Shown: piece by piece, positions 30,199 to 31,946 of the stretch | Position numbering within the stretch: the stretch's first letter is position 1 | How the letters are laid out: every line of letters begins with the position of its first letter | Origin: Aureitalea sp. L0-47 | Lineage (GTDB): Bacteria; Bacteroidota; Bacteroidia; Flavobacteriales; Flavobacteriaceae | NCBI RefSeq assembly: GCF_026126405.1 | Contig: NZ_JAFMTQ010000020.1 | Coordinates: 1 to 40,377 of the forward strand | Length of the DNA: 40,377 nucleotides | Direction of reading: 5' to 3' | Program-made: the position numbers and the translations under genes | Notes under the pieces: model-generated | The model's database searches: none | What the model was told of the DNA's origin: nothing | Seen by the model: the letters and a program-made list of their open reading frames with translations, nothing else

Positions 30199-30828
30199 CT
30201 ATTTACTCAAGTTAGTTTCAATTCCTTCCAAAGAACCTTCAAACAACACAAGGCTGTTTGCATTCATAATTTTATAAGTACTTAATTCTGTGTTAGTTAC
30301 AACTTCAGCACCTTTCAAATTACGAGACGACAAATATACATTATTATTCGACTCTCCCAATACGAACAAAGACTTTTTGTTTTCGAGTCCTAGTGACTTC
30401 AATACAGAAGTGAACTCTTTTGTCTTTGGTGCATCAAAACTAAGATCTTCCATCACCACGATCGCTTTGTCATTTGCCTTCATACTAAGGGCAGATTTTC
30501 TAGCCAATCGCTTGACGTTTTTGTTCAATTTAAACCCGTAGTTCCTTGGTCTAGGACCAAAGATTCTACCTCCACCTCTGAATACAGGAGATTTGATGCT
30601 ACCTGCACGTGCGGTTCCGGTTCCTTTTTGCCTTTTGATCTTACGGGTACTACCCACGATCTCACCTCGCTCCTTCGCCTTGTGAGTTCCCTGACGCTGA
30701 TTGGCCAGGTACTGCTTAACATCAAGGTATACAGCGTGGTCATTAGGCTCTATTCCGAACACCTCTTTAGAAAGTTCTACTTTCCTTCCGGTGTCTTTTC
30801 CATTCTTATCTACTACAGCTACCTTCAT
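30199..30828 (-). CDS. rplD: 50S ribosomal protein L4
   Basis: A 209-residue protein with a long loop reaching the exit tunnel. The start at 30828 gives [57 protein letters not shown]; the in-frame start at 30873 lies inside rplC. The loop [35 protein letters not shown] is intact. Its ATG overlaps the rplC stop by one base (TAATG). In E. coli L4 represses the S10 operon; a leader element exists here upstream of rplC. Confidence 0.97.
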
Positions 30829-31439
30829 TATTTCTCGATAGTTACATAAGCGTTCTTGTGACCAGGAACACATCCCTTTACAACAAGCAGGTTCTTTTCA
30901 GGAACCACTTTCAACACTCTTAAGTTCTGTACTTTTACTTTTTCATTCCCCATTTGTCCGGCCATTTTCATTCCTTTGAATACTCTCGCAGGATATGAAG
31001 CCGCACCAATGGATCCAGGAGCTCGTAGTCGGTTGTGCTGACCGTGAGTCGCTTGTCCCACCCCGGCAAAGCCGTGGCGTTTTACCACACCCTGGAATCC
31101 TTTACCTTTACTCGTTCCGGCAATATCCACGAACTCGCCTTCTGCAAAGTGTTCCACGGTGATCGTATCACCTAATTTATACTCCTCTTCAAATCCCTGG
31201 AATTCAACAACACGACGTTTCGCAGCTGAACCGGCCTTTTTTGCATGGCCCTCGGCAGCTTTGTTTGCAGTCTTTTTGTCATCGAAACCAAGTTGAAGAG
31301 CATTATACCCGTCAACCTCTTCGGTTCTGACTTGGGTAACAACACAGGGGCCTGCTTCTATAACGGTACACGGAATGTTCTTTCCGTTCTCGTCAAAGAT
31401 GCTGGTCATCCCTATCTTTTTTCCAATTAACCCAGACAT
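30828..31439 (-). CDS. rplC: 50S ribosomal protein L3
   Basis: A 203-residue early assembly protein near the peptidyl-transferase centre. [39 protein letters not shown] starts it; the conserved [66 protein letters not shown] is complete. It is the first gene after a 201-bp gap with attenuator-like structure, so it may begin a separately controlled unit. Confidence 0.98.
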
Positions 31440-31490
31440 ATTTATTATTTATTAATTATTACTATTTATTATTTCTGTTCTTGTCTTTTA

Positions 31491-31640
31491 TCCTCTGAAG
31501 CTTTAGCGAAAGAGGACGGAAACTTGCTTTTCAAAAAAACAGGGCCAAAATAAATTCAGCCCTGAATTTTATTTTGTTTCCGTTTTTCCTTTGCTCGCAG
31601 CTCCGGACATGTCTTGAAGCATTTTCGCTTCAGTTGTTCA
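31491..31640 (-). promoter_or_regulatory. Attenuator-like leader between rpsJ and rplC
   Basis: On the minus strand, in order of transcription: a small hairpin GCTTCA/TGAAGC-type (31632-31615); ACGGAAAC (31583-31576); a long A/T hairpin made by 31576-31562 with 31559-31546 (13-14 pairs and one bulge); a GC-rich hairpin CAGGGC (31564-31559) with GCCCTG (31545-31540) followed by seven T; GTTTCCGT (31523-31516), which could pair with the earlier ACGGAAAC; and a TCCTCT/AGAGGA stem (31516-31511 with 31496-31491). The long hairpin and the terminator-like hairpin share bases and are mutually exclusive. I infer transcription attenuation; no known leader family is claimed. Confidence 0.6.
31533..31564 (-). 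terminator. Terminator-like hairpin before rplC
   Basis: On the minus strand CAGGGC and GCCCTG pair across a 13-base loop and are directly followed by seven T. It lies about 77 bp after the rpsJ stop and about 94 bp before the rplC ATG, so it could end or attenuate the rpsL-rpsJ transcript. Confidence 0.65.
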
Positions 31641-31946
31641 TTATACCTTGATCTCTACTTCAACACCACTTGGCAATTCCAATTTCATCAACGCATCGAT
31701 GGTCTTGGAAGAAGAGCTGTAGATATCCAGTAGCCTTTTGTAAGAGCTCAACTGGAACTGCTCTCTACTCTTCTTGTTCACGTGTGGTGAACGTAATACG
31801 GTAAAGATCTTCTTGTGCGTTGGTAGTGGGATTGGCCCTGTTACTACTGCACCTGTACTTTTTACGGTCTTAACGATTTTCTCAGCAGATTTGTCCACTA
31901 AATTATGATCGTAAGATTTTAGTTTGATTCTAATTTTCTGACTCAT
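31641..31946 (-). CDS. rpsJ: 30S ribosomal protein S10
   Basis: A 101-residue protein that also serves as the NusE antitermination factor. [65 protein letters not shown] is diagnostic. Here it closes the str group (10 bp after fusA) and not the start of the S10 group, from which it is separated by a 201-bp structured gap. Confidence 0.98.

Follow-up and report, generated by a model that had tools for sequence, protein, structure and literature searches.

Does the long gap between rpsJ and rplC in a flavobacterial ribosomal-protein cluster hold a control point for the genes that follow it, and if so, of what kind? Control of the S10 operon has been studied well in E. coli, where the S10 leader lies before rpsJ, whereas its control in Bacteroidetes is not described in the literature that we searched. 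The window, that is, the whole stretch of 40,377 nucleotides analysed here, belongs to a draft genome of 3.38 Mb in 67 contigs, and the strand transcribed at this locus is the minus strand. From sequence comparisons, we propose with a probability of about 0.7 that the gap carries a cis-acting leader RNA of the rplC-led ribosomal-protein operon, which would work by transcription attenuation.

The rpsJ-rplC gap and its parts

Ten proteins of the cluster were tested against NCBIfam and received the names rpsL, rpsG, fusA, rpsJ, rplC, rplD, rplW, rplB, rpsS, and rplV, by which the cluster is recognized as a fused str-S10 cluster; a plasmid search gave no match. Recalculation from both gene coordinates reproduced the 201-nt gap between rpsJ and rplC that the preliminary description had singled out, and the other gaps are indeed small, the nine between listed neighbours from rpsL to two open reading frames past rplV measuring 3-25 nt, with rplC and rplD overlapping as listed. 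The predicted fold of the 201-nt gap has an energy of -51.7 kcal/mol versus -32.2 ± 3.6 kcal/mol for 200 dinucleotide shuffles (z = -5.4), none of which folded equally well. A terminator scan alone provided weaker evidence, with 3 terminator-like sites in 1.3 kb versus 1.3 ± 1.2 in shuffled sequences. The features of the locus are as follows.

31641-31946, minus strand: rpsJ (S10), the upstream gene (NCBIfam TIGR01049)
31615-31632, minus strand: post-stop hairpin after rpsJ, outside the core, variable in sequence among relatives
31533-31612, minus strand: whole conserved element of about 80 nt (P1 domain, hairpins A and B, and U tract)
31605-31612, minus strand: conserved 5' block ACAUGUCC (near-invariant alignment columns)
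31587-31607, minus strand: P1 hairpin, UCC..GGA, with internal purine mismatches and a GC..GC upper stem (two-sided pair changes)
31580-31589, minus strand: conserved GGAAAAACGG, single-stranded after GGA, presumed recognition sequence (column identity)
31547-31575, minus strand: hairpin A, A/U-rich, proposed antiterminator (cross-species permutation)
31540-31564, minus strand: hairpin B, intrinsic terminator stem sharing bases with A (pair changes and permutation)
31533-31539, minus strand: U tract of the terminator, 7 U in the window
31491-31523, minus strand: segment complementary to P1 and ACGGAAAC, specific to the window and not conserved
30828-31439, minus strand: rplC (L3), first gene of the presumed regulated operon (NCBIfam TIGR03625)

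Read 5' to 3', the element consists of ACAUGUCC, the small hairpin P1, GGAAAAACGG, hairpin A, and the overlapping hairpin B, and the gaps of relatives show ACAUGUCC, P1, GGAAAAACGG, an A-rich stretch, and then a block of the AAAAUACAUUCAGGGUUGAACGUGUUUUGACCCUGAAUUUUUUU type. The terminator and the longer A/U-rich hairpin that had been predicted from the single sequence are both in place: CAGGGCTG..TGGCCCTG at 31564-31540 is followed by TTTTTTT at 31539-31533, and AAAATAAAATTCAG at 31575-31562 pairs with CTGAATTTATTTT at 31559-31547. Two findings go beyond that prediction: the P1 domain, strongly conserved together with its flanks, and indications that the element is part of the rplC transcript.

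Distribution and conservation in Flavobacteriaceae

Using the gap plus flanking sequence as the query, we searched the DNA of 60 relatives, extracted the rpsJ-rplC gaps, and scored the presence of the element by a tolerant pattern and by eye. It was found in 28 of the 33 assessable members of the same family and was missing in the other five (G010, G016, G022, G026, and G028); in three further family relatives (G002, G003, and G009), no rplC was found. None of the 11 relatives examined from outside the family, out of 23 such among the 60, had the element. A looser exact P1 pattern matched at the rpsJ-rplC place in 27 of the 60 relatives, once in each, while six other matches (in G004, G017, G023, G033, G040, and G048) did not, by eye, resemble P1 in the part between the anchors; a control with the pattern reversed gave one match in the same 60 genomes. 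The exact P1 pattern occurs once in the genome of the window.

Larger samples were searched with R1, a covariance model of P1 and the terminator built from 27 sequences, which finds a single match in the window's own genome (E 4.9e-18). Among 296 genomes of the order, 33 had matches at E up to 0.01. The 24 strong matches (E below 1e-6, window included) all come from the same family and lie without exception between rpsJ and rplC; nine order genomes had weak matches only, and six of these loci were examined, none of them near rpsJ or rplC. In the phylum sample, 14 of 296 genomes matched, 13 of them strongly and all from the same family, the remaining weak match being unrelated; the two samples overlap, and search filters lose weak matches at such a scale, so that absence elsewhere is unproven. 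Weak matches outside the family numbered ten in all, and they were treated as chance because the seven loci examined (L056-L062) have no rpsJ or rplC nearby. A second, weak match was also seen in two genomes of the order sample that have R1 matches (G194 and G276). Four family genomes of the order sample, from genera g51 and g61 and picked for having no model match, lacked the element.

An exact pattern scan of a collection with one genome per species returned at least 118 stretches, 80 of which were made into loci. Among these 80 listed loci, rpsJ and rplC both flank the element in 72, and in seven others one of the two genes is in place and the locus breaks off close to the element where the other gene would lie; thus 79 of the 80 have rpsJ and/or rplC in place, and one (L114) is unrelated. 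The record titles of the listed loci name Flavobacteriaceae or its genera, except for L111 (Bacteroidetes), L114 (Bacillota), L127 (Rhodobacteraceae), and L150 (Chlorobiota); the titled genera Winogradskyella, Polaribacter, Tenacibaculum, Maribacter, Lutibacter, Gramella, Salegentibacter, Mesonia, Cellulophaga, Sinomicrobium, and Robiginitalea are ones that we take to belong to Flavobacteriaceae. L127 and L150 carry the element together with an rplC product 84% or an rpsJ product 99% identical to the window's protein, and are probably misbinned contigs of Flavobacteriaceae. The covariance-model search that the preliminary description had called for has accordingly located a homologous element at the same operon place in many Flavobacteriaceae.

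Conservation was assessed in alignment A3, whose 101 rows, fitted to R1 and taken from 100 chosen loci, lean towards P1 and B; one row (L088) is a partial antisense fragment, which was counted in covariation and left out of column conservation (100 rows). Two-sided changes in at least one row were observed for 14 of the 16 pairs of P1 and B, some of them in one row only; these comprise 5 of the 7 modelled pairs of P1 and all 9 of B. The covariation score for P1 and B, computed without phylogeny-aware statistics, was 0.296, versus 0.129 after column shuffling and at most 0.084 with the partner slid. Standard pairs occupy 78.9% of the P1 and B cells (101 rows). Two inner positions of P1 are mismatched in 94 and 86 of the 101 rows, usually as purine mismatches of the G.A type, and are replaced by standard pairs in several members, e.g., CCUUAACGAUGGUUAGGG. 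Column identity reached 0.95-1.00 in ACAUGUCC (columns 1-8, 100 full rows) and 0.98-1.00 in GGAAAAACGG (columns 27-36, 100 rows), identity that is partly by construction in the pattern-fetched rows. In alignment A2, composed of 27 rows that came from the search with gap and flanks and were accepted by a pattern allowing mismatches, 24-27 of the 27 rows agree per column in ACAUGUCC and 26-27 in GGAAAAACGG.

We parsed 124 unique element sequences, excluding loci that end too near the element and removing L114 beforehand. The preliminary description had also drawn outer segments pairing around both hairpins and two small flanking stems. The outer segments, ACGGAAAC at 31583-31576 and GTTTCCGT at 31523-31516, do exist in the window, but the full 8-nt pairing is formed in 1 of the 124 sequences, the window itself, and pairing over six bases in 4 of 124 (sought within 90 nt after the terminator in pattern-fetched loci), and we rejected it as a conserved part. 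The stem after the rpsJ stop codon (31632-31615) is likewise present, with a variable sequence, whereas the downstream stem found no support as a functional part. Outer pairing and downstream stem are peculiar to the window's genome among those examined. The segment at 31491-31523 is absent from five relatives (L003-L007); it is the source of much of the very low folding energy of the gap and dominates the predicted whole-gap fold, and because it lies 3' of the terminator, it is present in read-through RNA only. Many relatives have a hairpin of variable sequence after the rpsJ stop codon, possibly an RNA-processing or stability feature.

Competing hairpins and the rplC transcript

Hairpins A and B were examined independently of the alignments by joining the 5' part of the element of one species to the 3' part of that of another (300 permutations); L137, in which a wrong helix was parsed, was left out here and in the shuffle, barrier, and open reading frame tests and the element-rplC stretches described below, leaving 123 elements. 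The mean minimum free energy of A was -5.74 kcal/mol within species versus -3.59 kcal/mol when permuted, and that of B was -14.35 versus -8.93 kcal/mol, with none of the 300 permutations as low in either case. A still beat all permutations after reduction to 61 distinct 5' parts, in a test that corrects for relatedness only in part. The picture is less sharp for individual elements: an average of 23% of an element's chimeras fold A at least as well, and this share is below 5% in only 20% of elements. Relative to dinucleotide shuffles, the mean z of A was -2.8.

In 121 of the 123 elements, A takes bases from the 5' arm of B, and the two hairpins therefore exclude each other. An arrangement of A and B as an H-type pseudoknot was rejected, given these shared bases and the little or no linker between the 3' strands of A and B. 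In every one of the 123 elements, B is the more stable of the two hairpins, and the 8 nt after B contain 3-8 U, with at least five in 109 elements and a weak tract of 3-4 U in 14. We also estimated the barrier that separates the pre-terminator fold from the final one; its median over the 123 elements, 9.3 kcal/mol, is consistent with a delay of B by A; since such a barrier is taken to be slow relative to the transcription of ten bases, A could serve as an antiterminator despite the stability of B.

Where transcripts reaching the element may start was judged from TAnnTTTG, the promoter motif of Bacteroidetes. It occurs in 18 of 121 unique rpsJ-element intervals, compared with 5.4 expected from mononucleotide shuffles, and in none of the 51 element-rplC stretches with a known rplC start, where 2.3 were expected. 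Because the motif is found upstream of the element and not between the element and rplC, the element can be the 5' leader of an L3-led operon; as the intervals were selected for holding the element, they show that the leader position is possible and not that it is always kept. In five loci (L025, L102, L149, L153, and L156), a T-tailed hairpin after rpsJ (by eye) is followed by the motif, both before the element, a similar layout is seen in L048, L090, L128, L132, and L160, and the stretch between rpsJ and the element is enlarged in several such lineages. Overlap of the motif with the stop codon of rpsJ is seen in L049, L052, L106, L113, L126, and L131. In the window's genome, the rpsJ-element interval yielded no motif of this kind, and there the element would thus be an internal attenuator of a long operon.

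Family members without the element exist, so that an rplC-led operon does not need it. In three genomes of the large genus g51, which we take to be Flavobacterium, rplC lacks the element and the gap contains TAnnTTTG (L068, L071, and L072; by eye); in L068, the motif directly follows an inverted repeat. The available part of one report mentions an rplC promoter from Flavobacterium hibernum as being in use (PMC6847099), which fits a separately started rplC in Flavobacterium. Several gaps show features of their own. No rpsJ was found near rplC in L077 and L078 (family f5, genus g35), both of which have the promoter motif and a shared stretch (TTAGGGGCGTAGTATGCCTACATCAAACG..) before rplC, perhaps another leader. 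The rpsJ-element interval of L028 and L095 is filled with short tandem-like repeats of the GACGCAAAATTTTGCGTC type, and simple unrelated hairpins, e.g., GCTGGACACCGTTTTTCGGTTGTCCAGC, lie in the rpsJ-rplC gap of L073, L074, and L076, from other families of the order.

The proposal of an attenuator between rpsJ and rplC has thus held up well, because many Flavobacteriaceae have kept, at one and the same operon place, a terminator and a hairpin that competes with it, with compensatory base changes. In the mechanism that we envisage, A would fold first as the RNA emerges and, being slow to open, would allow RNA polymerase to transcribe through the U tract. A ribosomal protein of the operon, once present in excess, would bind the P1 domain and prevent or open A; since P1 and GGAAAAACGG lie a short way upstream of the 5' strand of A, a protein bound at P1 could decide whether A forms. 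With A blocked, terminator B would form and the L3-led genes would stay untranscribed, so that these genes would be turned down while the upstream str genes and S10 would still be made. We infer that the effector is a ribosomal protein; by analogy with E. coli, our first guess for the ligand would be L4 (rplD, the second gene), and L3 (rplC, the first gene) would be the second. Because B is the more stable hairpin throughout, the opposite sign, in which termination is the default and binding gives read-through, is equally possible. A further, tentative and rather doubtful proposal is a new class of attenuator at rplC, in which L3 or a new autoregulator would read the near-invariant ACAUGU-P1-GGAAAAACGG, unlike its rRNA site, and tip the balance of A and B. 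Mimicry of rRNA was considered, as AUGUCC..GGGAAAGAAC occurs in the 23S rRNA of a relative of the same genus (G006), and was dismissed as coincidence because in the Rfam LSU alignment AUGUC forms the 3' side of one helix and the partner of GGG is a CCC farther downstream, unlike the UCC/GGA of P1. A pattern search of the 16S and 23S rRNAs of G006 found nothing structurally equivalent to P1, and no 23S rRNA was found in the window's own draft genome.

Other functions of the same sequence have to be weighed against ribosomal-protein-controlled attenuation. B might act as a constitutive partial terminator that sets a fixed ratio of str to L3-led transcripts with no ligand, for which the U tracts and the uniformly greater stability of B speak; such a device needs neither the strongly conserved P1 and GGAAAAACGG nor the covarying hairpin A, and the element lies 3' of apparent separate rplC promoters, where a ratio to rpsJ has no purpose, which makes this explanation unlikely. 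An attenuator of the same layout could also respond to a ligand other than a ribosomal protein of the operon, such as a metabolite, an ion, a Nus-type factor, or a small RNA. That no rRNA mimicry was found is compatible with this possibility, but in the sets examined the element has one place per genome, beside a ribosomal-protein operon, which is the usual place of ribosomal-protein leaders, and we regard a ligand of this other sort as improbable.

It is very improbable that the RNA ending at the terminator acts in trans as a small RNA and that rplC is controlled only incidentally. A discrete RNA would arise from termination at the U tract wherever the transcript starts or is cut just upstream; hairpin A, however, would then be purposeless, and with the promoter motif missing from all 51 element-rplC stretches, transcription of rplC apparently must pass the terminator. 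Leader-peptide attenuation, in which a short open reading frame from the conserved AUG would control folding, is scarcely credible. This AUG is present in 122 of 123 elements (by construction in the pattern-fetched loci), but the third codon is a stop in 53 of 123, the reading frames scatter from 2 to 34 codons, the frame is not kept, and the spacer measures 14, 15, or 16 nt; an upstream open reading frame was discarded for its early stops and scattered lengths.

The element is of interest as a sharply delimited RNA that is found widely within one family and has a near-invariant motif and an explicit two-state switch. If the attenuator reading is true, the element would show where a lineage placed a control point in a fused str-S10 operon, and if its L3-type version is true, Flavobacteriaceae would uncouple the S10/spc genes from the str genes within one long operon.

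Comparison with known leaders

As in ribosomal-protein leaders, the element stands consistently before ribosomal-protein genes and has a conserved structure with covariation, and as in transcription attenuators, an intrinsic terminator lies upstream of the genes together with an alternative structure that excludes it. The preliminary description had put the element forward as a candidate undescribed attenuator, and our searches agree: Rfam 15 gave no match in the window or in the loci of seven relatives, and we found no described family to which it belongs. A permissive Rfam 15 scan of 31380-31700 gave 13 matches, all below the gathering score (best E 0.14). No such leader appears in the available text, supplements aside, of PMC2965389, PMC2864571, PMC6429828, PMC9723704, or PMC6847099, of which PMC9723704 reports 64 structured 5' regions in Flavobacterium psychrophilum; more generally, no rplC leader like the element was found in the literature searched, with supplements, preprints, and most subscription papers aside.

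Several described RNAs come near in one respect or another. The GUCCY-hairpin of Bacteroidetes and Proteobacteria (Weinberg 2010; PMC2864571) has a name that suggests a hairpin starting with GUCC, as P1 does. In the available part of that paper it is rated '?' both as an RNA and as a cis-regulator, occurs also in Proteobacteria, and is given no Rfam number; judged by this table line rather than by its consensus, it is unlikely to be the element. The rpsL-leaders of Naville & Gautheret (2010; PMC2965389) are likewise predicted attenuators in the str operon, but they lie before rpsL, and the main text of that paper contains neither rplC nor Flavobacteri. The ribosomal-protein leaders of Eckert & Weinberg (2020; PMC7247131) resemble the element as conserved, covarying, and lineage-restricted RNAs beside ribosomal-protein genes; as far as the available text goes, they include S4, S15, and S16 leaders in Flavobacteria, an L13 leader in Bacteroidia, and an L4 leader in Archaeoglobi, whereas Table 1 has no entry for an rplC, L3, or L4 leader in Bacteroidetes and the L4 motif preceding rplC is archaeal. 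Taking these comparisons together, the best reading is that the element is new as a ribosomal-protein leader, with its own motif, within a kind of RNA that is already known.

Two further systems resemble the element in their proposed mechanism, both as described in the available part of PMC10931766. In E. coli, uL4 binds a long 5' untranslated region of the S10 operon and, with NusA, brings about premature termination. Our element shares with that leader its position before an operon containing the L3 and L4 genes, an intrinsic terminator, and premature termination as the proposed output; it differs in lying after rpsJ and in having a conserved competing hairpin A, and the E. coli leader works with NusA-dependent pausing, differences that set the two apart by description. 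The rplJL leader of Bacillus subtilis, which is controlled by L10(L12)4, matches the proposed layout in having an antiterminator, a terminator, and a protein-bound domain that, in B. subtilis, favours termination, whereas its operon and ligand are others and the structure bound by its protein contains a kink-turn (PMC10931766).
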